Source: a virus. Taken from it: 46,845 bases of DNA. This document shows positions 1-46,845 of the stretch, in pieces; positions within the stretch are counted from its first letter, which is position 1, and every line of letters starts with the position of its first letter. Position numbers and translations under genes: made by a program. The notes under the pieces are model-generated. The model saw only the letters and a list, made by a program, of their open reading frames with translations, made no database searches and was not told where the DNA came from. The stretch lies in the IMG/VR virus record IMGVR_UViG_3300020020_000058, positions 1 through 46,845 of that record; one strand, 5' to 3'.

Positions 1-126
1 AAGAACTTCTCCAGCATGTCCTTATATAGAGCAGCCTGCTGTTCGTTATGTTGCAAGACAACAGTTTGGTAGTTAACTGGAGGCATCTGTAGGCCGACTT
101 CGGTAGCTGTTCTACGGATAAGGCGA
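1..126. repeat. terminal direct repeat, left copy
   Basis: These 126 bases are identical to 46719-46844; the next base differs (C at 127, T at 46845). The repeat lies inside the helicase gene, and joining the ends restores that reading frame exactly. This is most simply an assembly overlap of a circular or circularly permuted genome with a unique length of 46,718 bp, rather than a biological terminal repeat. Confidence 0.95.
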
Positions 127-1178
127 CCTTTAAGAATTTCCTTAAGAACTCTCTCGCTTTGGAGTGTCATCTTAAATTCTCCAGAGACATCCTTAAATGC
201 CTGGAATTGACGAGCAAACTTGCGAGCGTTATCAAACAAGATAGGATCAAAGATATGTAGGTAACTCCATATCTCTTCAATACGGTTAGCTACTGGAGTA
301 CCAGTAAGCATAAGAACAAAGCCTCTAGAGAGATTCTTTGTAGCCTCCCAAATAGCTGTAGGCCCGGATGCGTTAGCTCCGCCTCTAAGCTTATGGACTT
401 CATCCATAATCACAAAGTCCCAGTGGATTTTCTGTGCTCTCGGGGTATTCTTAACAGTTTCGTAGTTGGTGATAACACACATACCACCCATCTCTGCAAA
501 CTCGAATACCATATCCTTAGAGGCAGCATTATCAGCCCCTCTAACTGGAAAGCACTTAAGATCAGGAAACCAACGGCGAGCCTCATTAAATGTACCGCCG
601 GTCTCAACGATTGATTTCTTAGTCAACCAAAGAATGGTAGGCTCCGCACCGTTGTGCTTTTGCTTGTGGATTTCGATACAGATATATAATGCGACAAGAG
701 ATTCAAACGTCTTGCCTAGCGCCATATCGTTGGCGTTCATAACTCCAGTAGAACCGATTGTGTACTGGTGAACAATACGAACAACATCTTCTACTTGATA
801 TTCACGGGCCATATGCCATGATGCGAAATCAGCACATATCTCTTTGATCAATTGGACAGTAGTTTCATAGGCAGCATTCTTTGCCTCTTCCTCTTTCTGT
901 CTACGCAAAGCAGCAAGCTTAGAAAGATCTTCGTCATGTTGATCACGAGCTTTACGAAGGTCTTCGTACTTAGCCTTATGCATAATGTCCAATTGCTCAC
1001 GAAGTTTCTGAATCTTCGCAGTAATTTCATTATGCTTATGCCAATGCTCTGTCTCTATAGTATGAACCAAATCAGCGTGACCATTAACAGATTCAACTAG
1101 CTTGCGAATCTCTGCATCAATATCAAAGAACTGGGGCTTATCAGGTTCTTCTCCGCCTAGTCTCTTATTAAGTTCCAT
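1..1178 (-). CDS. SNF2-family DEAD/H-box helicase, N-terminal part (split by linearisation)
   Basis: This is the N-terminal 60% of a superfamily 2 helicase that continues at 46718-46034 when the ends are joined; the whole protein is 620 aa. Residues about 50-115 look like a charged coiled coil. The SNF2-type Walker A NDMALGKT is at 150-157, the Walker B DEVH box at 259-262 and motif III LTGTP at 291-295. Phage proteins of this type translocate on DNA and are thought to serve replication, recombination or transcription restart. The ATG at 1178 overlaps the stop of the upstream gene as TAATG, so translation is probably coupled. The frame offset across the joined ends is a multiple of three (364 codons before the methionine at 46804), which confirms one intact gene. 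Confidence 0.9.
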   Translation of the reverse strand, partial: MELNKRLGGEEPDKPQFFDIDAEIRKLVESVNGHADLVHTIETEHWHKHNEITAKIQKLREQLDIMHKAKYEDLRKARDQHDEDLSKLAALRRQKEEEAKNAAYETTVQLIKEICADFASWHMAREYQVEDVVRIVHQYTIGSTGVMNANDMALGKTFESLVALYICIEIHKQKHNGAEPTILWLTKKSIVETGGTFNEARRWFPDLKCFPVRGADNAASKDMVFEFAEMGGMCVITNYETVKNTPRAQKIHWDFVIMDEVHKLRGGANASGPTAIWEATKNLSRGFVLMLTGTPVANRIEEIWSYLHIFDPILFDNARKFARQFQAFKDVSGEFKMTLQSERVLKEILKGRLIRRTATEVGLQMPPVNYQTVVLQHNEQQAALYKDMLEKF

Positions 1179-1375
1179 TAGTCTATATTCTCCATTATTT
1201 TTTCCCAGCATTGGGCATGAATACCTGTCATTAGTAATTCTCTTTGATCAGCGTCAAGCTCAGGGAATGCGATTTGAATGCGAGTACCTTTCTTCCAATT
1301 ATTGTAATGCTCTTCATTGACTTCAATAGCACCAGTGTTATTACACATAATGCAGGGCTTAGTTGTTACAATCAT
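1178..1375 (-). CDS. small Cys/His protein, 65 aa
   Basis: Function is not recognised. The N-terminus carries CIMCNNTG, a single CxxC knuckle, and a later GIHAQCWEK segment adds one His and one Cys, so one zinc could be bound. The rest is charged and helical. The ATG overlaps the stop of the 59-aa gene upstream as ATGA, and its own stop overlaps the helicase start as TAATG, placing it in a tightly coupled leftward operon. It could be a helicase accessory factor or one of the many small host-takeover proteins of phages; nothing in the sequence decides between these. Confidence 0.75.
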   Translation of the reverse strand: MIVTTKPCIMCNNTGAIEVNEEHYNNWKKGTRIQIAFPELDADQRELLMTGIHAQCWEKIMENID

Positions 1376-1551
1376 TTTCCGTTGATTTCCTTATCTAGCT
1401 CTCGCATATGTTGTGACGCATTAATGCAATAGCCGCATTGTCCGTGAACTTCGCATGGCTTATCGCAATGAGGGCATTTTGATATTTCAAGTGCATGTCT
1501 CATGTAAATACTTAATGCTCGGTTACACCAAGTGCAAAGCTTCATTTTCAT
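1372..1551 (-). CDS. zinc-ribbon miniprotein, 59 aa
   Basis: The frame opens at ATG 1551 and translates to 59 residues with three CxxC knuckles (CTWC, CPHC and CGYC) plus a further Cys in DKPCEVHG. This fits a small zinc-binding fold of one or two sites. A second ATG two codons downstream is an alternative start. The first ATG overlaps the upstream stop by one base (TAATG), and its TGA overlaps the next start (ATGA). The function is unknown; DNA, RNA or protein binding are all possible. Confidence 0.8.
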   Translation of the reverse strand: MKMKLCTWCNRALSIYMRHALEISKCPHCDKPCEVHGQCGYCINASQHMRELDKEINGK

Positions 1552-1832
1552 TATGCACCTCCCGGCTTACACCATTCACAATAGCAATAGGGTAGAGGTA
1601 TACGGAAACGAATCTTACCTACAGGGGGAGGGAAGCCTTTATTACTTCTAGCAATCTCCGCTTCCTCTTCCAGTAGCTTTATTAGTTCGGGGTCAGGTCT
1701 TTTAATAGCAAGCCGTCTCTCTAAGATTTGGTTTCTACGAGAAAGCCGTTCGTTCTCTTTAGCAAGCTTATTAACTTCCCGCTTTAAACGAGCAACCATA
1801 TCCACCACCAGTTCAAAGGTACTCTCTTCCAT
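1551..1832 (-). CDS. coiled-coil protein with C-terminal CxxC, 93 aa
   Basis: Residues 1-45 form a strongly charged amphipathic helix (repeated RLKREVNKL-like heptads), very probably a coiled coil and so an oligomer. A proline-rich stretch follows, and the C-terminus holds CYCEWC, a compact metal-binding knuckle. The start ATG at 1832 overlaps the upstream TAA (TAATG). No known family is recognised. The combination of coiled coil and zinc knuckle would suit a dimeric adaptor or nucleic-acid-binding protein, but that is inference. Confidence 0.8.
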   Translation of the reverse strand: MEESTFELVVDMVARLKREVNKLAKENERLSRRNQILERRLAIKRPDPELIKLLEEEAEIARSNKGFPPPVGKIRFRIPLPYCYCEWCKPGGA

Positions 1833-1976: not shown

Positions 1977-2645
1977 CTAGTTCTTGACCTTTCCGTACTT
2001 AATGTCACAATCAGGATTAGCGTCAATCCAATCAATCAAATCGGCGACGTTCAAAGGCTCAATACCTAGACGCTTACAAACAGCTCTAGGATTATTGTAC
2101 TGTGCAGTCTCGTTTCCAAATACAAACATATACGGAACTGAAAGGCCTACAGGTGAGCCGTAGTTTCCAGGAAGGGGCTTCAATGCTTCGGGTGGTTCAA
2201 TGCCGCATGCATCAAACATTTCCAATAGGTTCATTGCGTCAATCCACCGCTGAAATCCCTTGCGCAACTTAATGTATTGGAGGTTAGCTAGCGGCTTATC
2301 CAAATCGCCTACTTCCTTAACGATCTCTGCTTGTGCCCTATCTTTTTCCATCCAATCGATTTGCCCAGCTGTTTTACGCAAACGGCTGGCCACTTCCTTA
2401 AGATGTTGAGTTGGCACGTTGTCGTCAACCCAATACCAAAAGGCATTAATCATCTTGTCTACTTCGGTGTAATCGTAGTCCTCTTTGGGGAGGTTAGCTA
2501 AGTAGTTGGCAACTGAGTTGTTGGACTTAAGGATGTCCTTTAGTTCTTCACCCTTCTCATGAACAGCCTTTGCAAAAGCGGCTGGTTCAGTCATAGCCTT
2601 GGAATAGTCTATCTCCAGATCATCCCAGAAATTAGAATCACTCAT
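1977..2645 (-). CDS. hypothetical acidic protein, 222 aa
   Basis: No family is recognised. The protein is soluble, largely helical and Trp-rich, with FWYWVDDNVP near residue 70 and WMEKDRAQAE near 100, and no membrane segment or Cys pairs. The ATG is preceded by GTAGGAGAGAAG, a good ribosome binding site, and overlaps the end of the 45-aa gene upstream by 8 bases. It sits near the start of the leftward operon fed by the promoter at 2820-2848, a usual position for early host-directed phage genes. Confidence 0.85.
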   Translation of the reverse strand: MSDSNFWDDLEIDYSKAMTEPAAFAKAVHEKGEELKDILKSNNSVANYLANLPKEDYDYTEVDKMINAFWYWVDDNVPTQHLKEVASRLRKTAGQIDWMEKDRAQAEIVKEVGDLDKPLANLQYIKLRKGFQRWIDAMNLLEMFDACGIEPPEALKPLPGNYGSPVGLSVPYMFVFGNETAQYNNPRAVCKRLGIEPLNVADLIDWIDANPDCDIKYGKVKN

Positions 2646-3911: not shown

Positions 3912-3957
3912 ACGATGTTACGAATATGAGCATTGTAACACCTGTAGGCAAACAAGA

Positions 3958-5013: not shown

Positions 5014-5823
5014 ATGGAACTCAAAACTCAACTAAAGGAAACCGACGGTTTCTTAGCTACACTAAAGAAGTTCCACCAACAAGAGGAAGATGAACAAGAG
5101 GAAGATTTTCAGAAAGACTTTCCAGAAGAGGAACCAACGAAACTGGTCTTCTCAAAGGGCTTCCGATTCGAAAAATGGCCAGAAAAAGAACGTGACGAAC
5201 GGAAAGACTTTATAACTTTCTGCGAGCGGCATTACTTCGAGTTCAAGAGTCTTCCTAATAGAGCAGACTTCGAGCAACATTTTCCGAAGAACATACTTCC
5301 CAAAACTATAGAAGAGTGGAAGCCCTTCTTAATGGACTTAATTGATCCATTAGAGGCAAGAGGGATTAAGCCTTATGACGTTCCATTTGAGTATTTGGAG
5401 CCTCAGTTTGTTACCGCTGTAACCTTCATTACAGACGTAAACGACAAGAGAAGTGTAACTGCTAAGCTTAAGCAAGTAGGATTAAGCACTAAGACTTGGC
5501 AAGCCTTGTTAGCGCAACCAAAGTACAAAGAGTACTACAAGAAGAGAATTGACGACCTCACAGAAGGTTTGGAGCAGGACGCTAAACTGAACTTGGCTAC
5601 ATTAGTTCAGGCAAAAGACCTACAGGCTATTAAGTTCTTCTTTGAGTTGCAGAACATCTACCGCCCTAGGGATAATGCTAACGACAAGATCATGCTTGCA
5701 CTACGAGCCATTATGGAAATTCTTCAAGAAAACGTCGAACCCCACGTTTTGGCTAAAGTGGCAGCACAAATCCGTGGCAGCGACCTTTTGAACCAAACGG
5801 CAATTGAAGCCAAAGCAAGTTAG
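5014..5823 (+). CDS. terS: putative terminase small subunit (DNA-binding), 269 aa
   Basis: I assign the small terminase subunit from position, two genes before the large subunit at the head of the late operon, and from content. After an acidic N-terminus (about 1-45) a central region has a helix-turn-helix of the type seen in phage terminase small subunits (VTAKLKQVGLSTKTWQALL). Helical oligomerisation segments follow (NLATLVQAKDLQAIKFFFEL). Such proteins recognise the packaging site and load the motor. ATG 5014 is preferred over ATG 5008 because the promoter's -10 ends at 5006. The exact family is uncertain. Confidence 0.65.
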   Translation: MELKTQLKETDGFLATLKKFHQQEEDEQEEDFQKDFPEEEPTKLVFSKGFRFEKWPEKERDERKDFITFCERHYFEFKSLPNRADFEQHFPKNILPKTIEEWKPFLMDLIDPLEARGIKPYDVPFEYLEPQFVTAVTFITDVNDKRSVTAKLKQVGLSTKTWQALLAQPKYKEYYKKRIDDLTEGLEQDAKLNLATLVQAKDLQAIKFFFELQNIYRPRDNANDKIMLALRAIMEILQENVEPHVLAKVAAQIRGSDLLNQTAIEAKAS

Positions 5824-5833: not shown

Positions 5834-6484
5834 ATGAAGTTAATTCCTAGAAGTCGCTGGACTAGTGTTGTACCTAAGATCACTACTGTAGGCGACAACC
5901 ACATAGACTTTTCTTACTTCCAGCAAGAATCTTTGCAGATTTTACCTACGGAGTTCTACCCTGTAGGTAAGGACATTCTGTACGTCTATAGGAATCCTAG
6001 CGTAGAGCTTAGCCAGTTGGTTAAAGAGGCTACGTACGGAACGGGATTGAGTGACATCGACTTTAACTACGCAATTGCACAGAACGTGGAAGGGGCGTTC
6101 GTGTTACGAGGTAGAGCAACTAAGTGTAGTAATACACACGCTCCGAGAGTTCTTCTGCTCTTAGGAAAAAACGAGGAACCAACTGATTTACTTAAGAAGA
6201 ACCAGCAAGACTTTCTTTCAAGTTTCCCCCCTGTAGGCAACTTAATTCCCGGTCCAACTCTTAGACCTGGAGACCAGAACATTCACGTATTTGATTTGAT
6301 CGAGTACCTTTCGGAAGTAGGGCTGTACGAAGGTAGAAACGACGCTTATTATGGGCCGTTTCTTCAAAGAGCCGTAACTAAGTTGCAACATATATACAGA
6401 CTTTCTAACCTTACAGGTGTTTGGGACGAGTGGATTTACACTAAGGTTAAGGAACAAGACAGGGAGTACATTACTCTTGCCTAA
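5834..6484 (+). CDS. PGRP-like (degenerate amidase_2) protein with peptidoglycan-binding domain, 216 aa
   Basis: Start ATG 5834 follows AGAAGGACTAGA. Residues 1-115 resemble a peptidoglycan-recognition/amidase_2 domain: IPRSRW like the family's ISRAEW opening, then SDIDFNYAIAQNVEGAF and LRGRATKCSNTHAPRV like the YNFLIG..VYEGRG..GAH region. The usual second zinc ligand set (H..CPG) is absent, so catalysis is doubtful. Residues about 150-210 match a PG_binding_1 repeat (DAYYGPFLQRAVTKLQ, then GVWDEW). It lies between terS and terL, an unusual place for a wall-binding protein, and may be a virion-borne wall binder. The true endolysin is at 21985-22956. Confidence 0.6.
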   Translation: MKLIPRSRWTSVVPKITTVGDNHIDFSYFQQESLQILPTEFYPVGKDILYVYRNPSVELSQLVKEATYGTGLSDIDFNYAIAQNVEGAFVLRGRATKCSNTHAPRVLLLLGKNEEPTDLLKKNQQDFLSSFPPVGNLIPGPTLRPGDQNIHVFDLIEYLSEVGLYEGRNDAYYGPFLQRAVTKLQHIYRLSNLTGVWDEWIYTKVKEQDREYITLA

Positions 6485-9235: not shown

Positions 9236-11437
9236 ATGGAGCTTGTGAGCGGGTCGGCTGACCAAAAACTTATAGAAAAGTGGAGCGGAAAAATCCGGTC
9301 CGCTCAACAAGCTCGTATTAAATTCGAGAAGCAATGGCACGAGAATATGTTGTTTTTCGGGGGAAAACAGTGGATTCAGATAAATAAGACAGTCAATGGT
9401 GGATTTAGTATTGTCGAGACTGTCTCGAAGGATAACTGGCGGGTTAGGCATACAGCTAACCGAATTAAGAGAATCATCCGTACCGAGCTTACTAAGTGCT
9501 CAAAAGAGCAGACTCAATGGTTTGTTCTTCCTGATTCTATGGATGAGTCAGATAGACTTGCAGCAATGGCGGGAGAGTCTATCGCAGAGTTCTTGCTTCG
9601 TACGAAGTATTTTAACCGGCGGCGAACAGTAGCTACATTCTGGGCACTTATCTGTGGCACTAGCTACTTAAAGAACTGGTACGATCCCAATAAGATTGAG
9701 AACGACGGATTACCTGGTAAGATTGATTTCGAGCCCGTTACTGCTTTCCATTTGTTTGTAGAAAACCTACAAGCAACTGAAATGGAAGAGCAGCCGTGGG
9801 CAGATCATGCCCGTACAATGAGTCCAGAGGACGTTTACAATTGTTATGGCATTGAAATTGAGCCTGGGACAGATGCTTCTAGACTGTTAGTTGATTCACG
9901 ATTCCTACAGTCCATTGGTATCAATCAAACAAAGTCTGCCGACAAGCAATGCTATCTGCATGAAGTCTACGTCAAGAAATGTAAGGATTTTCCCAACGGC
10001 GCTATGTTCATCTTCGCAGATGAGACAATGGTCTATGTCTATGAAGCTAAGACGCCCGATGAAATGCTTCCAGCCGGGATGCCTTTGGAAAAAACGGATG
10101 ATCCATTGGCTACATTAGATCAACCTGAATCAGATGAGCCACCTGTAGGCCCTCTCCCCCCTGTAGGTTATCCAAAATCTGCTCATGAAGGTTTAGAGGA
10201 TTATAAACACGAATTCCCCTACAGGCACGGAAGATATCCATTTACAAAGATCGATCATATTCCTACAGGAATGTGGTATGCAGACTCAGTTATTAAAGAC
10301 TTGATTCCTCCGCAGAAGGAATACAACCGAACTCGGTCTGCAATGATGGAATATCGCAATATGGCGGCAAAGCCTCAGTATTGGCATATTTCTGGAGCAT
10401 TTGATCCTCGTAAGTGGAATTCAAAGCCGGGTCTAACTCTTCCAGTTCATATGGGATTTGAGCCGCCTAAACCTATTGAACAGCCTGACCCTCCCTCATT
10501 CTTGCAAAATGAGCTAGACAATATTGTCCGAGATATGGACGATATTTCTTCTCAGTCAGAAGTTTCTAAGGGCAAAACTCCTCCTGGTGTTGAAGCTGCT
10601 TCTGCTATTGCTTATCTCGCAGAAGAGAATGACTCTATTCTGCTGCCGACTATTGAATCACTAGAAGCTTGTATCCAGGAAACTGGGGTACAGGTTCTTG
10701 CTAACGTTCACGATTATTGGGACCCTCAACGTGTTGTTAGAATGACTAGTAAGAATCAGTATCTTGAAGTTCGTGAATTCATGGCAAAGGATTTGAACCC
10801 ATTAACTGACTTCCGTGTGGAACCTGGTTCAATGGCTCCTAGAAGTCTTGCAGCCAAGCAAGCCTTTATGATTGAAATTATCAAGCTTGGCGCAGTTCCT
10901 CCTGAAAAGGTTCTTAAGTATCTGCAAATGTCTGAGACAGATAAGCTTTATGATGAGTTGATGCTGGACGTTAGACATGCTAGTCGTGAGAACGTCTACA
11001 TGATGCAGGGAATGCGTCTAACTAAGCCTGATATTAATGCTCAGCCACAAGTCGATCCTGAAACTGGTATGCTTTCTACAGAACCTGCAATGAAGAGTGC
11101 AGAGTTGATTAATCCAGAAACTCAGGTGCCAGAGGTTGATCCTACAACGGGTCAACCTATGTTGTATCAGGTTACAACTAACTCATACGATAATCATTCT
11201 GTTCATGTAGAAGAGCATGAAAAGTTCCAGAAATCACAAGAATACGAATTACTTCCTCCCGAGATTCAACAGATTATTCAAGATCACGTTGATGAACATA
11301 AGCTTGAAATGATTAAGGAAACTATGGTTGTTAATCAACAACAAATGGCACAAGGAATACCACCAGAAGAATCTAAACAACTAGAATCCGTTAGTCCGAA
11401 TGGAAATGGAGAGGCTCCACAATATGGATCCAGTTAG
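9236..11437 (+). CDS. portal protein, 733 aa
   Basis: Length, position and sequence match the large portal proteins of P22-like podoviruses, the dodecameric ring through which DNA is packaged and ejected. Recognisable parts are an opening helix region (QARIKFEKQWHENMLFFGGKQW), NRIKRIIRTELTK, the clip/stem region around FPYRHGRYPFTKIDHIP and GMWYADSVIKDLIPPQKEYN, and a GKTPPGVEAASAIAYLAEEN helix near residues 445-465. The C-terminal 150 residues are Gln/Glu-rich and may form a barrel or disordered extension. It follows the 152-aa gene by two bases, and scaffold starts inside its end. Confidence 0.9.
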   Translation: MELVSGSADQKLIEKWSGKIRSAQQARIKFEKQWHENMLFFGGKQWIQINKTVNGGFSIVETVSKDNWRVRHTANRIKRIIRTELTKCSKEQTQWFVLPDSMDESDRLAAMAGESIAEFLLRTKYFNRRRTVATFWALICGTSYLKNWYDPNKIENDGLPGKIDFEPVTAFHLFVENLQATEMEEQPWADHARTMSPEDVYNCYGIEIEPGTDASRLLVDSRFLQSIGINQTKSADKQCYLHEVYVKKCKDFPNGAMFIFADETMVYVYEAKTPDEMLPAGMPLEKTDDPLATLDQPESDEPPVGPLPPVGYPKSAHEGLEDYKHEFPYRHGRYPFTKIDHIPTGMWYADSVIKDLIPPQKEYNRTRSAMMEYRNMAAKPQYWHISGAFDPRKWNSKPGLTLPVHMGFEPPKPIEQPDPPSFLQNELDNIVRDMDDISSQSEVSKGKTPPGVEAASAIAYLAEENDSILLPTIESLEACIQETGVQVLANVHDYWDPQRVVRMTSKNQYLEVREFMAKDLNPLTDFRVEPGSMAPRSLAAKQAFMIEIIKLGAVPPEKVLKYLQMSETDKLYDELMLDVRHASRENVYMMQGMRLTKPDINAQPQVDPETGMLSTEPAMKSAELINPETQVPEVDPTTGQPMLYQVTTNSYDNHSVHVEEHEKFQKSQEYELLPPEIQQIIQDHVDEHKLEMIKETMVVNQQQMAQGIPPEESKQLESVSPNGNGEAPQYGSS

Positions 11438-35262: not shown

Positions 35263-36953
35263 TTCAATCTCTTCCTATCTGTTCTAAAGCTTAGGCCGAA
35301 GATTGGCTTTGTCCAATCTTCCATTATGTGTTGAGCTTCTTCTACTTCTTTCTCATTATCTACTACGATCCAGACTGAGTCGTGGACTTGGTTTGCAATG
35401 TCAAAGCCCGCTTCATCCAGTCGTATAAGGCTTCGTTTAACGATCTCGAAAGCTCCTCCCTGTATAACTGAGTTGAATGCCTGGCGACATTCAGAGGGGT
35501 ATCGGAAGTGTCTTGTTCTTCCTGACCATAAATCAATTTCCATGTCGTCTTCGGCGATTCGTTGGGCTTCATCAGCCTTGTCGAAGATTTCTGGATAACT
35601 GGCTTTGTATGCTTTGTGAATCTGTTCAGCCACGGAATACTTAACTCCAAGCTGCTTTTGAAGAACTCCGACCCCACCACCAAACGACATGAGATAATTA
35701 ATTGTCTTAGCTTTGAATCTCTCAATCGGTATTTTAAGTTTACTTGAAACATCATCCGCCACAAGTTGATGAAAATCTCCTTCGTTTTCAAAAAGGTCAA
35801 GGAGTTTTGTGGAACGAGCATATACTGCCTGTAATCTATACTCAATGGTCCTAAAGTCAATCTCCCAAAGTTCTTTTCCTTCCTCAGGGAGAAAGAGTTT
35901 TTTAACGTGCGCATCTGCGTATTCCTCTCTAGGTATCTGCTGTAGGTTGGGGTTCTCGCAGGAAAGACGCCCCGTCTCGGTGCCATTCTGCTTGAAATTG
36001 GGGTGGAGCCTCGGATAGTCCCTGGTAGTGAACCTAAGATAGGCTGAAAAATAGCTTGACTTTTGCTTGGCTAATTTGCGATACTCGTATACGAGGGCGG
36101 TCACCGGATGACCAACCCCCTCTAGCCACGCAAGTGATACCTGTGGTTGGTTAGTCTTAGGAGTACGGGATGGAACAGTTAAACCTAAACCAAATGGTGG
36201 TTCGTCAAAGAGTTTGGGATGCAATTGAGATGGTTTGGCTGGATCAAATTCTAATTGTTCCTGAATCTCACGAAGGCGAAGATCGGCAAGATTCTCCCAT
36301 TCGAGACATTTCTCCCGATCGACCAAAATCCCACGTTCCTCGATTTTGTTCAGCAAGATCATAAATGGACGGTCGTACTTCTCCCATTGCTCTAGATGGA
36401 TTGGCTTAGACTTGTTTCTAAGAACTTCATAGAGCTTTGGGAGAGGACTAACGTCTTGCTCGCAATAAACTCCCATAGCCCACGGTGGCGCAGTAACCCA
36501 CCCAAATTTCTTAAGCGCCTTCTGTTCCATAGTCTTCTTACGCTCGCCAATGTAAGTAGCTAGAACGGCATCTAGGTCGTGGCCAGGGATATGGTTCTCA
36601 TCAATATATACTGACATCATCATTGTACACCACAAGTTCCCTGTAGGTACTTTCACTCCCGCATTGGGAAGTACTTCTAGACAGTCGAACTTTACATTGT
36701 GTGCAATAATAGGATTAGTGAAATCTTGGCACAGATCATTAGGCACCTGTAGGTTATTAACTATTTCACCCATGAAGGGTTTATGGCCTACAGGAATGTA
36801 CCAAGTATTAAAGTCAGTCGTTACTCCTAATCCTAGTAGATAGCGTTCTTTACGTAACTCAGTGTAATTGGTCTCCGTGTCTAAAGCCAATACCTTTGAA
36901 TCCAATACTTCTCGGCGTATCTGTTCCAGTTGTTGTGCTTCCGTCACTAACAT
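35259..36953 (-). CDS. polA: family A DNA polymerase with 3'-5' exonuclease, 564 aa
   Basis: This is the replicative polymerase. The proofreading exonuclease is intact: DTET (Asp25, Glu27), NVKFD (Asp90) and YCEQD (Asp167). There is no 5' nuclease. Motif A is WEIDFRTIEYRL (Asp366). Motif B is KAKTINYLMSFG, with Tyr420 at the E. coli Phe762 position. Motif C is QVHDSVW (Asp525), with Ser526 in place of the usual Glu. Tyr at 762 is the T7-like state associated in the literature with lytic phages. The gene starts 95 bases inside the primase-helicase gene and uses ATG 36953 after AGG. Confidence 0.95.
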   Translation of the reverse strand: MLVTEAQQLEQIRREVLDSKVLALDTETNYTELRKERYLLGLGVTTDFNTWYIPVGHKPFMGEIVNNLQVPNDLCQDFTNPIIAHNVKFDCLEVLPNAGVKVPTGNLWCTMMMSVYIDENHIPGHDLDAVLATYIGERKKTMEQKALKKFGWVTAPPWAMGVYCEQDVSPLPKLYEVLRNKSKPIHLEQWEKYDRPFMILLNKIEERGILVDREKCLEWENLADLRLREIQEQLEFDPAKPSQLHPKLFDEPPFGLGLTVPSRTPKTNQPQVSLAWLEGVGHPVTALVYEYRKLAKQKSSYFSAYLRFTTRDYPRLHPNFKQNGTETGRLSCENPNLQQIPREEYADAHVKKLFLPEEGKELWEIDFRTIEYRLQAVYARSTKLLDLFENEGDFHQLVADDVSSKLKIPIERFKAKTINYLMSFGGGVGVLQKQLGVKYSVAEQIHKAYKASYPEIFDKADEAQRIAEDDMEIDLWSGRTRHFRYPSECRQAFNSVIQGGAFEIVKRSLIRLDEAGFDIANQVHDSVWIVVDNEKEVEEAQHIMEDWTKPIFGLSFRTDRKRLN

Positions 36954-38547
36954 CTTGTGTACCTATCCTAGTAAACCATAGGTTTTTGTTACGTTGAACC
37001 ATGAATGCGAAGTCTGGCCCGAATCTAACCTTAACTGCTGAAAGCTCCATACCCTTGTGGTCTTTCCAGAGTTGTAGTACAGATTCGGCGACTCGACCGA
37101 AATGGTAAGAGTCTGCCAAGTCAGCTAAGCTCTTAGGTTTCTTATTGCCCTCTGTAGCTTTTCTGTTGTGGTGAATCAATACAACAGAGACACCATACCT
37201 GCGTCGGATTTTCTTGATCCATTTCAATAGTCTAAGAGCTTCTGCCGCTGCTCCATCTTCTCCCTTTTCAGTTAGTTCCGAAGCACTGTCGATCAACACT
37301 GTGTTAATATGCTGCTGTTCGATAATGTCTTCATACTTAACAAGCGGCGTAGTTTCGTCTAATACCACTACACTAGGCTTAGCCTTGTGCTCTTTGGACT
37401 GGTGACCGATAATGTACTTAAGGCTTCTCACGTCCATTTCCAAGGACATAATTAAGCATTTCTGCTTGCGTGTAGGTAGCCAACCCATAAAGCGTTCCTG
37501 CTGATCTAAACAGTAAGCTAATTGGCAAATCCACTGAGTCTTGCCTACACCTGGGGCAGAGGAAATAATTAAGAAGCCAGTGCCATGTAAGACGCCGGGG
37601 ATAACCCAATCTAAATCATCGACGTGATGTAAAATGTCGTCGAAGGAATAGAGAACTATCTCATCCTCAGCAATGTGCTTATGGATGGCGTAGTCGGCTA
37701 TCTGACTCAATCTCAGGAGTTGGTCGTTACGGCCTTCAAACTTCTTGATTCGTCCGTCTACGTATTTAAGTAGAGAGACAACCTCAGTATGTCCTAGACC
37801 TTCTTCGGCTAACTCATTAGCAAGTCGGGCTAAAAATCCACTCCTATGGGGTTCCACTGGAGTTTCAATTTTCAGCATCTTTAACAGTTTCATCGGAAAC
37901 GTAAAGTTCCTAAGAATCTGCTCGAATGAGATTAGATTCTCGGGTACAACTGTTATAGATGGGCCCTTGACTTGTGGCACGTAGTCAAAGTCTATAAGCT
38001 TATGCTTAGACCGACTACACGAGCTAAGAACTACCGGTTTTGCTGTGTCTCCGAATTCCTCGTATTTATGATTCAGAGTTTCCGGCGGTCTTAGTAGTTG
38101 GGTTGAGTCCCAGCCACCATTGTCAGCTTCTAAGTAATATGTTAACCTCCTGCTAGTTTCTTCGATGGTTTCAAAGTCACTTGGCTCTACTCGCCAGTAA
38201 CAGTGAACTTTGGTACTTGCACTGGTTTGAACTATTAATGACGGATCAGGTAAGTCTTTGAATGAGAGGAACCTATCTGTGCCATCGAAGTCTACCCAAA
38301 CTGTCTGAATCTTTTTGATAGCATCCTTAGTCCCCCTGCGTTCTGAATAAACGGCGGGACTAATGTAGATGTCTCCCCTACCCCGCCTAACATGCGCAAC
38401 CAATTCGTCTTTTTGTTTGGGCCATTCAAACCAATTTGTTTCCCAACCTGCTGGGTTTTCCTTTGTTATCTCTACTTTTGCTGGAGAATAAACTAACCCC
38501 TGTAGGCCATCGAAAAGGGTGTCCAAGTAAACATCTAAATCACCCAT
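36859..38547 (-). CDS. primase-helicase fusion (AEP/RepB-like primase + RepA/DnaB-like ATPase), 562 aa
   Basis: Residues 1-190 resemble an archaeo-eukaryotic-type (RepB-like) primase: VWVDFDGTD supplies the metal-binding Asp86/Asp88 and SASTKVHCYWRV the substrate-binding His115. Residues about 310-500 form a hexameric RecA-fold helicase with Walker A SAPGVGKT (330-337), IMSLEM with Glu370 as in DnaB, and Walker B VLID (417-420), then SVVLIHHNRK. Such fusions unwind the fork and prime the lagging strand for the adjacent polymerase. SD CAGGAGCGAG precedes ATG 38547. A large hairpin lies just upstream. Confidence 0.85.
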   Translation of the reverse strand: MGDLDVYLDTLFDGLQGLVYSPAKVEITKENPAGWETNWFEWPKQKDELVAHVRRGRGDIYISPAVYSERRGTKDAIKKIQTVWVDFDGTDRFLSFKDLPDPSLIVQTSASTKVHCYWRVEPSDFETIEETSRRLTYYLEADNGGWDSTQLLRPPETLNHKYEEFGDTAKPVVLSSCSRSKHKLIDFDYVPQVKGPSITVVPENLISFEQILRNFTFPMKLLKMLKIETPVEPHRSGFLARLANELAEEGLGHTEVVSLLKYVDGRIKKFEGRNDQLLRLSQIADYAIHKHIAEDEIVLYSFDDILHHVDDLDWVIPGVLHGTGFLIISSAPGVGKTQWICQLAYCLDQQERFMGWLPTRKQKCLIMSLEMDVRSLKYIIGHQSKEHKAKPSVVVLDETTPLVKYEDIIEQQHINTVLIDSASELTEKGEDGAAAEALRLLKWIKKIRRRYGVSVVLIHHNRKATEGNKKPKSLADLADSYHFGRVAESVLQLWKDHKGMELSAVKVRFGPDFAFMVQRNKNLWFTRIGTQDVSDGSTTTGTDTPRSIGFKGIGFRHGDQLH

Positions 38548-38645: not shown

Positions 38646-39086
38646 TTAAACTGCGTAGAAGTGATCAAATTTAGCAACAATAAACTTCTTGCGAAGTGGG
38701 TCATTCTCGGTATCGGAAGCCTTCTTATAGGTGTCATGAGTAAGGATCGCTCCAACCTTCATTCCGATAAACTCGGCAGGCTTAGAGACATCAATCTTGA
38801 CGTTTTCCAATGATGCACCAGTAAGAGCAGAGAAGAAAGCCAAGGCCGCAAAAGGATTCTCATAGTTAACATAAAGGTTATGGAAGACCTTCAGTTTTTC
38901 AGAAATTCCCTCTGCGTCAATGTGGAAGGTAAGGGCAATATTGAATCCCAGGTGTTGCCTATCTTCATCGTTTACTGGCTTAGGATCAAAGGCATCAACA
39001 ACGAGAGTATAGTTTCCTTCCTCTGGGAAGATAAACTCAGGCTGTTCCTTAACGTTACCAAAGTCAATTGTAAATACATCAGACAT
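38646..39086 (-). CDS. DUF669-like ssDNA-binding protein, 146 aa
   Basis: The pattern FTIDFGNVKEQPEFIFPEEG, YTLVVDAFDPKP, LGFNIALTFHID, VFHNLYVNYENPFAALAFFS and FIGMKVGAILTHDTYK matches phage DUF669 proteins. These are OB-fold-like and encoded beside Sak4/ERF/RecA-like proteins; they are thought to coat single-stranded DNA for annealing. It overlaps the Sak4-like gene upstream by 8 bases. Confidence 0.75.
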   Translation of the reverse strand: MSDVFTIDFGNVKEQPEFIFPEEGNYTLVVDAFDPKPVNDEDRQHLGFNIALTFHIDAEGISEKLKVFHNLYVNYENPFAALAFFSALTGASLENVKIDVSKPAEFIGMKVGAILTHDTYKKASDTENDPLRKKFIVAKFDHFYAV

Positions 39087-39753
39087 CGAATAAATCTTTC
39101 CATGTTGGGTTATCGATATAAGTCTTTTGGATGTTGAGACGATTCTTCGCCTCGATCAGTGCTGTTTTATTTATGTATAGTCTTCTCTTTGCTCCTTCTA
39201 CAATTGTGTTAGACTCGGCTTCTAGATATGCGACAACATTCACAAGCTGGATATAGGAGTTTCTTAGCTTGGGAGTAATGTCGGGAAAGATTCCTTTTAG
39301 GATAAGATGCTGCGTTTTAACATCTCTTTCGTAGTATTTGTTTTCATGGCCTATAATGCAAACATTGATTGGTGCCCGCTGTAGGAAATTGAACAGCTTA
39401 GCGAACTCTTCTGTAGCATGTTTGAATACTAGAGAGTCTGTGTCGTGGTCACGAATATAGTAGCTAAGGGCCGTTGTAATTGTGTCAATCACAATCGTCT
39501 TAGCTTCCTTATTCTTGACTATTCGTTCGCAAGTAGCTCTGAGTTCTTTTACATCTTTAGGTGTAATAGTAGGAATACTTTTGTACGGCTCAGGCCAGTT
39601 CCTTAAAGTCTCTGTTGACTTCTCGAAATCACACCAAGCTGGTTCAGGTGCATCAGCGCAAAAACGAGTTTTACCTGAACCAGGTGGGCCGTATAAGCCT
39701 AACTTCGCATATTGTATTGTATCTTTAACTTTTGTAAATCCGGCGATTTCCAT
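39079..39753 (-). CDS. Sak4-like RecA-fold ATPase (single-strand annealing/recombination), 224 aa
   Basis: Walker A GPPGSGKT is at 22-29 and Walker B TIVID at 86-90, with an IGHENKYYERDV segment near 145 and no large lid. The length and the pairing with a DUF669-like protein and a RecB-like exonuclease are typical of phage Sak4 recombinases, which anneal complementary single strands. The start overlaps the upstream Zn-finger gene by 55 bases. Confidence 0.82.
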   Translation of the reverse strand: MEIAGFTKVKDTIQYAKLGLYGPPGSGKTRFCADAPEPAWCDFEKSTETLRNWPEPYKSIPTITPKDVKELRATCERIVKNKEAKTIVIDTITTALSYYIRDHDTDSLVFKHATEEFAKLFNFLQRAPINVCIIGHENKYYERDVKTQHLILKGIFPDITPKLRNSYIQLVNVVAYLEAESNTIVEGAKRRLYINKTALIEAKNRLNIQKTYIDNPTWKDLFDV

Positions 39754-40238: not shown

Positions 40239-40437
40239 GCAGGCTCTCTGGCTTACAGGCAACATAGGCTTGGAAGGTTTTGAATTGGACTTGTCCCCCA
40301 GTATAGAGACTTTCTTTGAAGTACCCACTAGCTCCTTCCTCCACTTCTATAGTTTTACTAGTCCCGTCTGTTAGATTAACTGTGAAGCTTTTTATTGGGA
40401 GCGTCTCCTGAGGCGTATTCGTCGGTAAAAGAGGCAT
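40222..40437 (-). CDS. hypothetical protein, 71 aa
   Basis: I start it at ATG 40437 after TTAGGA, although an ATG at 40494 in frame is possible. The product (SFTVNLTDGTSKTIEVEEGA, then GYFKESLYTGGQVQFKTFQA) is a small beta-rich acidic protein. It overlaps the end of the exonuclease gene by 62 bases. No family is recognised. Confidence 0.6.
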   Translation of the reverse strand: MPLLPTNTPQETLPIKSFTVNLTDGTSKTIEVEEGASGYFKESLYTGGQVQFKTFQAYVACKPESLHGEPI

Positions 40438-41350
40438 GTTTCCTAACAGGTTCCTTAGTAGTAAAGTGTTGAAGGATAATTGGTGTTGAGTCAATCCCTT
40501 TACGTTCAGCGTAACACGGTCCCTGATAAGGGCAGTACGTACAGGCTTGGCTGTAGTTCGGGATTGATTTAGACCCTAGCATACTCTCTACCAACATGCA
40601 AAGATGCTCAAAGTATTGCTTTAGTTCTTTCTTGTTATAACCTACTACAGAGAATGTGTAAGACTCTGCATGGCTAGGAATTTTCTTGACGTACTCCTTA
40701 GTGTTAATGTAGCTAATTTCCCCGAACGGTATTTCACCCGTCAACATAAACACCACAGTAACATAGAACAATAACTGAGCAGAGTTGATAGCATCTAGCT
40801 TAGACCAAGACCTTTCCCCCGACTTGTGGTCACGTACTCTAGGGTTCCCACCGTTATCCCAATACAGAAGATCAGTAAACCCTGAGAGAATTACATCGGA
40901 ACTTACTGGATATGCGACTTCAGCTTCTACGCTCTCAACAGTAATTCCAGCATCTATCCTTGGTGACTGCTCTTTAATATAACGCTGGAACATCTTAGCG
41001 ATGACTGCAAACGTAGTTATTAAAGAACCGTCACCTGGATTACCTTGTAAATAATGAGTCACATCTCTTTCTATTTTAGCCGTTATTAGAGCTACTGCAT
41101 GATCGCTTCCAGGATCAACTCCAGCCTTAATTAGTTTGTAGTATTCGTGAGCAAGTTCGTGAAAATAGTTGCCTTTATTGAAATGTCCTTTAGGTGCTGC
41201 CTTAGGCACTATCTGCATTACATACAGATAGTGAAACTTCTTAGCACACTCTTGAAATACTTTAAGCCGACTCGGCGAGACGAATGTTACTTCGCTCGGG
41301 GCCAGTATTGGTAGTAAGTTCGCCTGTGGTAAGCCCGTCGATAATTTCAT
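40376..41350 (-). CDS. PD-(D/E)XK exonuclease with Fe-S cluster (RecB/Cas4-like), 324 aa
   Basis: The RecB-type nuclease signatures are present: SPSRLKVFQECAKKF (Cys35), NYFHELAHEY (His64), SGFTDLL (Asp160), VRDHKSG (Asp174, Lys176) and QLLFYV. Three Cys near the end (CTYCPYQGPC, 270-279) with Cys35 complete the 4Fe-4S site of the Cas4/AddB type. It probably resects DNA for the Sak4-like annealing protein encoded two genes downstream. The N-terminus overlaps the 55-aa gene by 89 bases; ATG 41350 seems the only good start. Confidence 0.87.
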   Translation of the reverse strand: MKLSTGLPQANLLPILAPSEVTFVSPSRLKVFQECAKKFHYLYVMQIVPKAAPKGHFNKGNYFHELAHEYYKLIKAGVDPGSDHAVALITAKIERDVTHYLQGNPGDGSLITTFAVIAKMFQRYIKEQSPRIDAGITVESVEAEVAYPVSSDVILSGFTDLLYWDNGGNPRVRDHKSGERSWSKLDAINSAQLLFYVTVVFMLTGEIPFGEISYINTKEYVKKIPSHAESYTFSVVGYNKKELKQYFEHLCMLVESMLGSKSIPNYSQACTYCPYQGPCYAERKGIDSTPIILQHFTTKEPVRKHASFTDEYASGDAPNKKLHS

Positions 41351-42521: not shown

Positions 42522-42914
42522 GCACCCAGTTACTTCTACGGGGGAGAGAGTAACTGGATGCTTCTACCCATAACTGGGGGAAGTAGGAAAACCCCCAGAA
42601 AAGAAAGTACGAGAGTTAGGGATAGTAAAACATGTTTCGAATTACTATCCCTAACACTCTCAATTGCAAGGCGGTAACTATCCTCGCTATCGACGATCGA
42701 CGACAGTTTGAATATTACCTTTCCTGTAGGTTTTCTCTCCTACAGATTAATTGCGGAATAGCTTAGCTATCCTAGGTCTAAGCTATTCCGTCGATACTAG
42801 TGTACCGAATAACCTACCAGTATTATCGCAACTGATAGGTTGCTAGTTTTGTTTATTTGTCTAGCATTTGATTATGTGGGGAGTAAGGGGTTAGCGAACT
42901 GCCCTACTCCCCAC
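42522..42914. repeat. array of at least seven inverted repeats in a gene-free region
   Basis: The region 42488-42920 has no gene. Stems: 42526-42534/42549-42557 (9 bp, 12 with one mismatch), 42574-42580/42592-42598 (CTGGGGG), 42615-42628/42642-42655 (14 bp perfect), 42724-42730/42739-42745 (CTGTAGG/CCTACAG), 42754-42766/42778-42790 (13 bp perfect), 42811-42821/42831-42841 (10 of 11) and 42876-42885/42905-42914 (GTGGGGAGTA, the terminator-like end of the 257-aa gene). Loops are 8-19 bases. It may be a structured RNA, a replication origin or a packaging site. Confidence 0.85.
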
Positions 42915-44643: not shown

Positions 44644-44840
44644 TTTTTATTCCTTAGGGGTGGATTTCGACACCAAGGGCCTAAATGCCAACCGATTATT
44701 TCGTCATCTTCTATAATTAGATGACACAAAGCATTGTGTGGACCACCTGTAGGCATTCTTATAAGAATCTGTCCACAGGATTTGCAATGCGAAAAAAACT
44801 TTGCTTTAGGGTGAATAGGTTTAATAAGAACATTATTCAT
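44640..44840 (-). CDS. zinc-ribbon protein, 66 aa
   Basis: HCKSCGQILIRMPTGGPHNALC supplies one CxxC pair plus another Cys and His residues, then a beta hairpin (HLIIEDDEIIGWHLGPWC) and a basic end. This resembles a treble-clef zinc knuckle. The start overlaps the upstream stop (TAATG) and the end overlaps the next start (ATGA). Confidence 0.75.
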   Translation of the reverse strand: MNNVLIKPIHPKAKFFSHCKSCGQILIRMPTGGPHNALCHLIIEDDEIIGWHLGPWCRNPPLRNKK

Positions 44841-45019: not shown

Positions 45020-45410
45020 ATCCGAATTTCTTCCATCTCTCGAAGAAGTTTTCTCCTTCCCAGCCTTCTGGTTTGTACCCTAATACATGACATTGATGTT
45101 GAGAGAAACAAGTAGTATCTCTACCATGCCCATGAACTATATGAGTTCCTTTATGCAAGTCTTCTCCTATATTCCAAATATGTAGATTACCCTCATCCAT
45201 GTAGTGGCTATAAATAAAATCGGACCACTCGAAGCCTACAGGATAGAGGACACTAAAGCATTTGTGCTCATAAACTAAACCTTTGTACCCATTAGCAAAA
45301 AGATTAGGTAGATCGCCTACAGGGCGCTTATTCTTTGTTGAGGGCTTTTGTCCTATAGGACTAGATAGTAGCGCTTTGGCACTTGCTCGTAATTCCTCTA
45401 AACTAGCCAC
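45012..45410 (-). CDS. hypothetical protein, 132 aa (GTG start)
   Basis: GTG 45410 starts one base after the upstream TAA; an ATG 81 bases upstream would lie wholly within that gene, so I prefer GTG. The start ASLEELRASAKALLSSPIGQ is helical, then a Tyr/His/Trp-rich body (GLVYEHKCFSVLYPVGFEWS, GTHIVHGHGRDTTCFSQHQC) with clustered His and Cys that could bind a metal. No enzyme family is recognised. Confidence 0.6.
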   Translation of the reverse strand: MASLEELRASAKALLSSPIGQKPSTKNKRPVGDLPNLFANGYKGLVYEHKCFSVLYPVGFEWSDFIYSHYMDEGNLHIWNIGEDLHKGTHIVHGHGRDTTCFSQHQCHVLGYKPEGWEGENFFERWKKFGYV

Positions 45411-45645: not shown

Positions 45646-45857
45646 TATGATACTTTCCTTTGAACTAATGACTGATGGACCAAACGTGCTCTATGGGCCT
45701 TGTTAGTCTTAACAAAGACTACAAAGCCATGCTTCTCATGCTTAAACGGCTTGTTAGTAACAGTGCCGTACCTATCCCCTCTCATCCAATCATCCATAGC
45801 CGGATTGAATTCTACTATATCCCCAACCTTTAGGTTATCAAACTCTGTCATGTTCAT
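45645..45857 (-). CDS. KOW/SH3-like protein, 70 aa
   Basis: FDNLKVGDIVEFNPAMDDWM, RGDRYGTVTNKPFKHEKHG and FVVFVKTNKAHRARLVHQSL form a small beta-barrel pattern (VGDxVEF..GTV..) like SH3/KOW or hypothetical phage DUF proteins. The SD is AGGAGCTATTATA. It overlaps the next gene by one base. It may bind RNA, DNA or a host protein. Confidence 0.75.
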   Translation of the reverse strand: MNMTEFDNLKVGDIVEFNPAMDDWMRGDRYGTVTNKPFKHEKHGFVVFVKTNKAHRARLVHQSLVQRKVS

Positions 45858-45869
45858 TATAATAGCTCC

Positions 45870-46034
45870 TTAGAAATCATGTAGACATACAGAACAAGCA
45901 AAACCTTTAGGCTCCTTTGCATAATGGTGGTGGCACTCAAAGCATCTCCAATCTTTATCTTTGCCTACAGGCACTTCAAATCTATGGTGGTACCAACACA
46001 TAAATCTATTAATTGCTTCTAACCACCAGCCCAT
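45870..46034 (-). CDS. zinc-ribbon miniprotein, 54 aa
   Basis: CFECHHHYAKEPKGFACSVC makes two CxxC knuckles 16 residues apart, a classic zinc ribbon, after a basic helical start (MGWWLEAINRFMCWYHHRFE). The ATG shares a base with the helicase stop (TAATG), so it is co-translated with the helicase and may be its partner. Confidence 0.8.
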   Translation of the reverse strand: MGWWLEAINRFMCWYHHRFEVPVGKDKDWRCFECHHHYAKEPKGFACSVCLHDF

Positions 46035-46845
46035 TACAGTAGTTCCTTAAGTAGACGCTTCCATTCTGATGCGGGGCGAAGTTCAGAAGCTTCAGTAAGG
46101 TTACCTAGTTTTTGCGATTTCTCATCACAAAGGAACTGAATGAAGTAATCAACTGAGTTCTCAACTTTGTAGTCATAAACAAAGACAGGTTCCCCAGCAG
46201 TCTCACCAGGACGAACTGCTCTAGCAATGCACTGGTTATTACGTGCATCGTTCCACCACTTATCTAACATATGTACTGCTCTTGCTCCGCCCAGCCACTT
46301 AGCCTTATCCTTATGCAGATTAAGGCCTTCACCCATTGCAGAGTTAAGCAACAGAACATGAATCTTTCCGGCTTGGAAGTCTGTCTCATAAGTACTCATC
46401 TTATCTGCGTACTTACTAGAGATAATGGCAGAGGACAATCCCTCTATCTGTAGGCGCATCGCTAATTCTTCTAATGGCTCATTGAATGAACAGAAGACAA
46501 TAGCCTGGTCGTCTGTTTGGACAATCCTATCTAGGCATTCGTCTAGCTTAGAAGAATCTCGCACGTCAAGAGTAACCCTACCAATTTCGTTGCCTTCCTC
46601 GTCTTTATCGACAAAGGTACAAACGGGCAGAACATTGATCTGACGTAGACGAGTCAACTGAGCTAGCAAACTCATAGCAGGAAGCAGCTTGTCTGGGTCT
46701 TGCTTATCGACAAAAACAAAGAACTTCTCCAGCATGTCCTTATATAGAGCAGCCTGCTGTTCGTTATGTTGCAAGACAACAGTTTGGTAGTTAACTGGAG
46801 GCATCTGTAGGCCGACTTCGGTAGCTGTTCTACGGATAAGGCGAT
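46034..46845 (-). CDS. SNF2-family helicase, C-terminal part (continues at 1-1178)
   Basis: This is the second RecA-like domain of the helicase that begins at 1178. YKDMLEKFFVFVDKQDP opens the domain, DQAIVFCSFNEPLEELAMRL is motif IV, LNSAMGEGLNLHKDKAKW motif V, and IARAVRPGETAG (46174-46220 region) the motif VI arginine finger. It ends in a short helical tail. Bases 46719-46844 repeat the left end of the window, so the frame appears in both places. The stop overlaps the ATG of the 54-aa zinc-ribbon gene. Confidence 0.9.
   Translation of the reverse strand, partial: RLIRRTATEVGLQMPPVNYQTVVLQHNEQQAALYKDMLEKFFVFVDKQDPDKLLPAMSLLAQLTRLRQINVLPVCTFVDKDEEGNEIGRVTLDVRDSSKLDECLDRIVQTDDQAIVFCSFNEPLEELAMRLQIEGLSSAIISSKYADKMSTYETDFQAGKIHVLLLNSAMGEGLNLHKDKAKWLGGARAVHMLDKWWNDARNNQCIARAVRPGETAGEPVFVYDYKVENSVDYFIQFLCDEKSQKLGNLTEASELRPASEWKRLLKELL
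46719..46844. repeat. terminal direct repeat, right copy
   Basis: Exact copy of 1-126 (see left copy). Base 46845 is T where position 127 is C, which may be a sequencing or assembly end error. Confidence 0.95.

Follow-up and report, generated by a model that had tools for sequence, protein, structure and literature searches.

The window analysed here, i.e. the whole stretch of 46,845 nucleotides of DNA from a soil-bacterium virus (IMG/VR record IMGVR_UViG_3300020020_000058), bears 126 identical bases at its two ends, a terminal redundancy, and encodes on its minus strand a predicted primase-helicase, a family A DNA polymerase, a Sak4-like annealing protein and a Cas4/PDDEXK_1 exonuclease (Table 1). 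Rfam and tRNA searches of the window gave no matches. The octamer CCTGTAGG is present in 30 copies (14 on the plus and 16 on the minus strand) and its heptamer core CTGTAGG in 58 copies (31 and 27, respectively), vs. 1.28 and 6.3 copies expected under an order-2 Markov model. Given the terminal redundancy, the heptamers at positions 87 and 46805 are a single site, which leaves 57 distinct heptamers. The initial annotation, which had estimated about 30 octamers and 55 heptamers against about 1 and 5 by chance, on both strands and inside as well as outside genes, was thus close to the counts. Its close pairs were also found, namely the 10142/10160 tandem, the head-to-head pair at 29257 (minus) and 29266 (plus) and the hairpin stem, which spans 42723-42746, except that the tandem CTGTAGG heptamers starting at 20727 have their second member at 20745 and not at 20743. 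As for the long octamer-free gaps it listed, these contain heptamers, and the longest one (21673-26445) was missing from the list.

Table 1. Replication genes and CCTGTAGG octamers in the window.
Feature	Position	Strand	Basis
Predicted AEP-type primase (residues 1-300) fused to RecA-fold DnaB/RepA-like helicase; proposed motif reader	36859..38547	-	Pfam AAA_25; PHROG DNA primase and primase/helicase families
Family A DNA polymerase with 3'-5' exonuclease	35259..36953	-	Pfam PF00476 E=8.9e-55, PF01612
Sak4-like RecA-core annealing protein	39079..39753	-	phrog_124 E=1.9e-34
Cas4/PDDEXK_1 exonuclease	40376..41350	-	Pfam PF12705 E=3.7e-27
Octamer	3941..3948	+	word count
Octamer	5960..5967	+	word count
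Octamer	6230..6237	+	word count
Octamer, tandem with 10160 copy	10142..10149	+	word count
Octamer, tandem with 10142 copy	10160..10167	+	word count
Octamer	18933..18940	+	word count
Octamer	19978..19985	+	word count
Octamer	20253..20260	+	word count
Octamer	26445..26452	+	word count
Octamer	36640..36647	+	word count
Octamer	36746..36753	+	word count
Octamer	38499..38506	+	word count
Octamer, possible hairpin with CCTACAG 42740-42746	42723..42730	+	word count
Octamer	44746..44753	+	word count
Octamer	1618..1625	-	word count
Octamer	2146..2153	-	word count
Octamer	5619..5626	-	word count
Octamer	10218..10225	-	word count
Octamer	10262..10269	-	word count
Octamer	12153..12160	-	word count
Octamer	15385..15392	-	word count
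Octamer	17177..17184	-	word count
Octamer	21666..21673	-	word count
Octamer, head to head with CTGTAGG at 29266 (+)	29257..29264	-	word count
Octamer	31082..31089	-	word count
Octamer	32380..32387	-	word count
Octamer	36787..36794	-	word count
Octamer	45235..45242	-	word count
Octamer	45316..45323	-	word count
Octamer	45964..45971	-	word count

The expected number of octamers rises with the order of the Markov model, from 1.2 (order 1) to 2.25 (order 3), 4.3 (order 4), 13.4 (order 5) and 24.9 (order 6), and for CTGTAGG orders 4 and 5 give 16.8 and 36.8. The excess is strong at orders 1-4; at order 6, which the initial annotation had proposed along with order 5, the z-score of the octamer falls to about 1, but only because the heptamer is itself the signal. 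A palindromic, HIP1-like dispersed repeat was discarded, CCTGTAGG being asymmetric and its palindromic variants CCTATAGG (two copies) and CCTGCAGG (none) not enriched.

Within the coding sequences of the window, 27 octamers and 50 heptamers were observed vs. 4.0 and 8.5 after a within-gene shuffle of synonymous codons, which rules out a codon or amino-acid artefact and upholds the independence from codon use claimed earlier. About 12% of the window is non-coding, and eight of the 58 heptamers are fully intergenic. Genic heptamers run with the gene in 27 cases (24 of them in the frame NCT-GTA-GGN) and against it in 23, the latter being spread over frames. As a whole, the signal resides in the DNA itself and depends on neither genes nor codons.

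The analysis was extended to about 25 related and unrelated viruses. The cultured relatives of the window phage infect Arthrobacter, Cellulosimicrobium and Microbacterium, and nothing indicated the acI/Nanopelagicales host suggested initially. The word is common to related phages: relatives as distant as 37% terminase identity retain CTGT-core words whose 3' half is specific to the lineage (CTGTAGG, CTGTAGC(C), CTGTAGCG, CTGTGG(GA) and CTGTCG), and all lineage words vary around [C/G]TGT[A/G/C][G/C]. Jasmine and Gorgeous, which share the host Arthrobacter sp. ATCC 21022, carry CTGTGG (101 vs. 16 expected) and GTGTGC (93 vs. 24 expected), respectively, Commonplace carries CTGTGCT (36 vs. 6.6 expected), and Zuko an evenly spaced GTGTGG. 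GTGTGG is the top or near-top over-represented word in Gordonia, Mycobacterium, Microbacterium, Serratia and Pseudomonas phages, and its copies show even spacing in a Streptomyces phage. In phages with unrelated capsids and hosts and a homologous primase (GTE2, Cozz, BigChungus, Muddy, Eleri, Triscuit, Serbin, PMBT14, Lebethron and Gorgeous), GTGTGG or GTGTGC ranks among the words in greatest excess. Both orientations of the word are equally frequent in the window's family, with no regional switch of the window octamers along the genome; several GTGTGG phages display a two- to three-fold orientation bias. A replication module with an AEP primase is common to these carriers, and, judging from the genome sequences, the word follows this shared phage module and not the host.

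Zuko, BSTP10, CN1A, Desulfofustis and Strzyga fit this pattern less well. The primase of Zuko shares no more than 22-25% identity with the others, its PolA, Cas4 and Sak4 being 44-55% identical to those of GTGTGG phages, and BSTP10, in which CTGCGG is enriched and evenly spaced, has a DnaG/Toprim-type primase instead of an AEP one. In CN1A, which possesses an AEP primase, CCGTGCG is enriched but lacks even spacing, and Desulfofustis and Strzyga have full primases and only weak CTGTG words. No such word was found in KSY1, which has PolA, Cas4-like and Sak4-like genes, nor in ctLwi270, which has PolA and Cas4-like genes, a marginal Sak4 match and no primase homolog. STP9 carries GTGTGG; it was left out as evidence since its partial genome shows no primase. 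In Shocker, CTGTAAAGG was rejected as the word, the evenly spaced one there being CTGTCG, common to DS1; CTGTAAAGG looks like a separate element.

On each strand, the copies are more evenly spaced than by chance in most lineages. While the coefficient of variation (CV) expected by chance is about 0.95, the per-strand CV is 0.40 in Triscuit, 0.41 in Commonplace, 0.47 in G002, 0.53 in Zuko, 0.58 in Eleri, 0.60 in Muddy, 0.62 in Gorgeous and 0.65 in Jasmine. The combined Fisher probability is about 1e-23 over 26 genomes and 1e-6 over the window's family, related genomes being counted separately. For most other enriched words of the same genomes, the CV is close to 1 or higher. When one strand was rotated relative to its partner, the pooled spacing stayed the same, i.e. 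the strands are not coupled, and even spacing per strand without such coupling fits a directional reader of single-stranded DNA. The window itself, with a copy every 1.5 and 1.7 kb on its two strands, is not significantly even (CV 0.88, P=0.28), nor are ctEqG8, G006, G007, G009, Serbin and Lebethron. The sites are also conserved: 74 of 87 between Jasmine and Adat vs. 584 of 949 same-composition words (P=3e-6), and 45 of 64 between GTE2 and Cozz vs. 169 of 330 (P=0.003). If primers began with purines, pyrimidines should prevail 5' of the motif; such a preference is only weak and not uniform.

A full-length fold search with the primase was dominated by DnaB/RadA-like ATPases, and the N-terminal domain was consequently modelled alone. 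The model of residues 1-300 (pLDDT 85) matched RepB' (3h20, E=1e-8, probability 1.00) and the S-2L PrimPol (6zp9, E=3e-8), with only E=0.09 for the pRN1 primase; a PDB search with the primase sequence gave no match. Five modelled helices at 208-298, a candidate for the C-terminal helix bundle that would read the template, are spanned by the full-length RepB' match, with a poor superposition. AEP motif I (hhhDhD/E) reads TVWVDFDG, and among 12 homologs D88 is invariant and residue 86 is D or E. H115 of motif II (sxH) is invariant in the window's family and His or another residue in distant homologs, as in PrimPol-PV1, where Gln or Tyr may replace His. Motifs III (hD) and IV correspond to the invariant D147, R153 and N159, the Asn lying six residues past the Arg, the same spacing as Arg231 and Asn237 of PolpTN2. 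The N-terminal part thus has, according to the model, an AEP fold of the PrimPol-PV1/RepB' kind.

We conclude that (C)CTGTAGG(C/T) is probably the site at which the AEP-type primase-helicase encoded by the phage recognises its single-stranded template for priming. This builds directly on the enrichment of the word, its DNA-level nature, its co-occurrence with the module across unrelated hosts and the modelled AEP fold, as well as on per-strand evenness in most lineages and site conservation in two genera; the primase as reader, and the priming step itself, we infer. By analogy with the pRN1 and NrS-1 primases, GT[N] in the unwound template would be bound by the putative helical-bundle domain. 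Synthesis would begin on the bases immediately 5' of it, i.e. the invariant T and the preceding base, opposite which the first two nucleotides would be linked, and the primer would then be elongated by the family A polymerase. Sites would be kept every 1-3 kb or so per strand as starts of Okazaki fragments, and, since a site of 7-8 bases is too rare by chance for such a density, selection would maintain dozens per strand, the motif changing by lineage together with its reader. It also seems fairly likely that, more generally, a widespread group of AEP-primase phages of actinobacterial and proteobacterial hosts marks both strands with evenly spaced start sites of 6-8 bases co-evolving with the primase. 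Counted against a primase reader are Zuko, BSTP10, CN1A, Desulfofustis, Strzyga and the spacing in the window and the other genomes without significant evenness, together with the flexible site use of the NrS-1 primase. Moreover, genes for Cas4-like, Sak4-like and helicase proteins are found alongside the primase, so that presence and absence cannot single it out.

This co-occurrence makes a phage-encoded Chi-like system the main rival: the word would be an orientation-specific signal read by the phage's recombination module (Cas4-like exonuclease, Sak4-like annealing protein and SNF2-like helicase) in end resection or recombination-dependent replication. In almost all phages tested these genes do accompany the motif, evenness per strand would likewise follow from a reader working in one direction, and Zuko and BSTP10 fit a recombination module better than an AEP primase. 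We nevertheless hold it to be unlikely, in view of KSY1 and ctLwi270, which lack the word despite their PolA and Cas4-like genes, and of the match between the words and the GTG-type sites of AEP primases. Furthermore, in RecBCD and AddAB Chi is read by a scanning subunit, to which nothing corresponds in the Cas4-like protein, a nuclease domain of about 320 residues, and annealing proteins are not known to be sequence specific. That the site is a host Chi, or another host-read site carried against host nucleases, as the initial annotation proposed, is very improbable. Like E. coli Chi (GCTGGTGG), the word is on the octamer scale, asymmetric, dispersed and over-represented, and would likewise have an orientation-dependent reader; Chi also varies among bacteria as the word does among phages. 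However, Chi is specific to a host, whose own RecBCD/AddAB reads it, whereas the word tracks phage replication genes across hosts; the idea was rejected, from the phage genomes, because different words occur on one host strain (Jasmine and Gorgeous) and the same GTGTGG occurs in phages of six host genera (Gordonia, Mycobacterium, Microbacterium, Streptomyces, Serratia and Pseudomonas). The balanced orientation in the window's family speaks against it as well.

A site for a phage regulator or DNA-organising protein (repressor stoperators, ParB, a nucleoid or packaging protein) has a precedent in the stoperators of Cluster A mycobacteriophages, which number roughly two to three dozen, are asymmetric, measure 13 bp and co-vary with the repressor, and the dozens of asymmetric genome-wide sites varying between relatives do recall those of L5 type. 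Stoperators are mostly intergenic and oriented with transcription, unlike the mainly genic, unoriented sites found here; a double-strand binder is not expected to yield evenness per strand uncoupled between strands, and among the gene families compared, none outside the replication module is common to all carriers. We therefore consider such a site improbable. A mutational or compositional by-product without function would agree with high-order Markov models absorbing much of the octamer count, but hardly with the excess at lower orders, the lineage-specific words in unrelated phages, the even spacing and the conservation above same-composition words, and we give it almost no credence.

Start sites of primases are as a rule too short to leave more than a faint mark on a genome, and lagging-strand starts are therefore unreadable from sequence; the long site described here leaves a clear statistical trace, being enriched, even per strand and conserved. 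No genome-wide primase motif in phages was found described in the open-access literature, and, as far as we could find, an evenly spread primase start signal of this kind has apparently not been described before. If the priming reading is true, the specificity of an uncharacterised phage primase and its lagging-strand start points could be read from the genome alone, primase specificity would become predictable for hundreds of phages, and Okazaki-fragment spacing could be viewed at the sequence level as a selected trait. It would also explain why such words look Chi-like and yet do not track the host.

The closest characterised AEP primases (RepB', pRN1 and NrS-1) use GTG-containing templates. 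NrS-1 PrimPol, likewise a phage AEP-type primase, reads a short single-stranded site, TTTGGTTA or GTGA/GTGG, with flexible site choice, and starts just 5' of it (PMC8718748); its GTGG is contained in the GTGTGG and CTGTGG words. Genome-wide enrichment or even spacing, as seen for the words found here, is not known to have been reported for that site. The NrS-1 enzyme acts as a polymerase too, a role for which the window phage has a separate family A enzyme. The pRN1 primase (ORF904) and RepB', the latter being the best structural match of the window primase, combine AEP catalytic and helix-bundle domains: pRN1 uses the GTG within its template CTGTGCTCA, pairing the first base at the T preceding GTG, and the GTG in ssiA of RSF1010 is proposed as the start for RepB' (PMC11009956, PMC4434180). 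The Commonplace word is identical to bases 1-7 of the pRN1 template. Both are plasmid enzymes, and RSF1010 has one ssi site per strand vs. dozens per strand here. The (G/T)2GTC sites of T7 gp4 are likewise primase recognition sites spread along a phage genome, read by a DnaG/Toprim-type primase with a short site; in T7 they show no even spacing and are at most mildly over-represented (GGGTC 94 vs. 57, TGGTC 141 vs. 125 and GTGTC 85 vs. 68). Finally, the per-strand spacing in the window falls inside the 1-6 kb range of used primase sites and Okazaki fragments in T7 (PMC12839067).

The window is terminally redundant, with 126 identical bases at both ends, and has a genome size of about 46.7 kb. 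Its kin are podoviruses of actinobacteria, among them Arthrobacter phage Jasmine, whose portal is 32% identical. As the initial annotation had indicated, the octamer CCTGTAGG is strongly over-represented, with 30 copies (14 on the + strand and 16 on the - strand) vs. 1.3 expected under an order-2 model. The heptamer CTGTAGG occurs 58 times, 57 of these being distinct, vs. 6.3 expected. Under the order-5 and order-6 Markov models that annotation had advised, the octamer excess is smaller, since the 6- and 7-mers that the word contains are over-represented in their own right. The conserved unit is CTGTAGG, with C favoured on its 5' side and C or T on its 3' side. Copies run both with and against the direction of the genes and are also found in gaps. 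Shuffling synonymous codons within genes left 4.0 octamers and 8.5 heptamers, vs. 27 and 50 observed in coding sequences, which rules out a codon effect as the source of the copies and bears out the earlier view on this point. Another word, GGATCA/TGATCC, is also in excess (55 vs. 20 expected), but clustered rather than evenly spread.

When the ends are joined as a circle, the gene for an SNF2-like helicase (59% identical over 623 positions to that of the larger related contig G001) runs uninterrupted across them, and the apparently gene-free start of the window is therefore coding. The window has a + strand WhiB-like gene that overlaps a RuvC-like gene on the - strand; in the annotation of Jasmine and Adat, a WhiB-like gene at the convergent junction also overlaps a - strand gene.

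Coordinates of the features of the window
Position	Strand	Feature
1-126 and 46719-46844		Terminal direct repeat; the final base of the contig differs
46034-46718, then 1 to ~1178	-	SNF2-like helicase gene
32377-32889	+	WhiB-like gene, overlapping a RuvC-like gene (-)
36859-38547	-	RecA-fold helicase with a fused primase domain at its N-terminus

A search of IMG/VR with the terminase and the polymerase provided 73 loci. The excess of a CTGT-core word is mostly kept down to about 37% terminase identity, while its 3' half differs by lineage. In the furthest terminase relatives (L059-L068), neither a CTGT-core excess nor, in their fetched stretches, a primase was found. Related words also occur in phages that carry a homologue of the primase but whose capsid genes are unrelated, and all share the form [C/G]TGT[A/G/C][G/C].

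Words in the window, larger related contigs and cultured relatives (first five rows) and in phages with unrelated capsid genes
Word	Genomes	Copies vs. expected
CTGTAGG	window, G001, G011, ctEqG8	
CTGTAGC	G003, G004, G005	
CTGTAGCG	G007	63 vs. 1.3
CTGTGG	Jasmine, Adat, Casserole	90-101 vs. 15-16
CTGTCG	DS1; Shocker	116 vs. 28 (DS1)
GTGTGG	Gordonia GTE2, Cozz, BigChungus; Mycobacterium Muddy; Microbacterium Eleri, Triscuit; Serratia Serbin; Pseudomonas PMBT14, Lebethron	
GTGTGC	Arthrobacter Gorgeous	
CTGTGCT	Curtobacterium Commonplace	

Streptomyces phage Zuko shows only a mild enrichment of GTGTGG, yet with very even spacing. No comparable word was found in lambda, T7 or ctLwi270, which are without the window-type primase domain; in T7, similarity to the window protein is confined to the helicase. 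The word thus follows the phage replication module. It is not set by the host, as a host Chi-like site of the kind first envisaged would be, since Jasmine and Gorgeous share one host strain but have different words and GTGTGG spans Actinobacteria and Proteobacteria.

Other repeats and biases were met in these genomes. In Microbacterium phage Shocker (L085; 63% GC), CTGTAAAGG has about 40 copies vs. about 0.1 expected, 13 of the 45 copies of CTGTAAAG are fully intergenic, with copies accumulating at the genome ends, and TTAGGGTA is over-represented too (15 copies); together they look like a separate regulatory element. Cellulosimicrobium phage DS1 (L084) has a second repeated element, AGGCTAT/ATAGCCT (27 vs. 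3.9 expected), with conserved flanks. In siphophages L126-L128, L130, L134 and Lebethron (L153-L155), GTGTGG is about 1.6-2.4 times as frequent on the + as on the - strand, perhaps reflecting a dominant replication direction.

In most lineages, per-strand spacing is more even than random, with a coefficient of variation of 0.40-0.71 vs. about 0.95 (Triscuit, Commonplace, G002, Zuko, G003, Eleri, Muddy, G011, Gorgeous, G005, Jasmine, BigChungus, PMBT14 and Shocker). Each of the 16 genomes that were compared with control words of similar abundance fell below the control mean, nine with a rank P < 0.05. Fisher combination gave about 1e-23 for 26 genomes and 1e-6 for the window's own family, values to be taken as guides only, since related genomes were treated as independent and words were picked for their excess. 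The window itself is not significantly even (0.88; P = 0.28). Rotating one strand against the other left pooled spacing the same in nearly all genomes, and the strands are therefore uncoupled. Sites are also conserved: 85% are kept between Jasmine and Adat vs. 62% for words of the same composition (P = 3e-6), and 70% vs. 51% between GTE2 and Cozz (P = 0.003). Such a pattern is predicted by a reader acting on single strands, not by a duplex-binding protein.

Residues 1-300 of the window primase, modelled together with 11 relatives (pLDDT 85), best matched in the PDB the RSF1010 RepB' primase (E = 1e-8) and the cyanophage S-2L PrimPol (E = 3e-8), with the pRN1 primase behind them as a weak structural match. 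The window primase carries AEP motifs I, II and III together with the Arg/Asn motif IV known from PrimPol-PV1. From this fold and its motifs, the GTG-type sites of AEP primases and a spacing in the Okazaki range, we propose that the word is the template recognition site of the phage's own primase.

The main rival, a Chi-like site read by the phage's own Cas4-like exonuclease/Sak4 module, appears improbable to us. In its favour, Cas4-like, Sak4-like and helicase genes accompany the primase, and Zuko retains GTGTGG despite a very diverged primase, its PolA, Cas4 and Sak4 being similar. PolA is an unlikely reader because none was detected in Commonplace. In CN1A, Desulfofustis and Strzyga, the primase is present and the words are weaker or irregular. 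Bacillus phage BSTP10 (L181-L183) has evenly spaced CTGCGG (57 vs. 9.5) and a zinc-finger/Toprim DnaG-type primase-helicase spanning the record ends; its CTGCGG copies would be either sites of another primase family or sites read by another shared protein.

Sequence-specific AEP priming is already known; no description of a genome-wide, lineage-specific and per-strand even array of AEP sites in phages was found in the open-access literature searched. GTG-containing template sites are known starts for AEP primases: the pRN1 primase reads GTG within CTGTGCTCA, the first nucleotide pairing with the T that precedes it; GTG has been proposed as the start site of RepB'; and NrS-1 PrimPol uses GTGG/GTGA and TTTGGTTA. 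When aligned to the pRN1 site, all of the words found here take the form [C/G]-T-GT[N]-[G/C]. Sites in the window average one every 1.5-1.7 kb on each strand, which falls inside the Okazaki range of 1-6 kb reported for T7.
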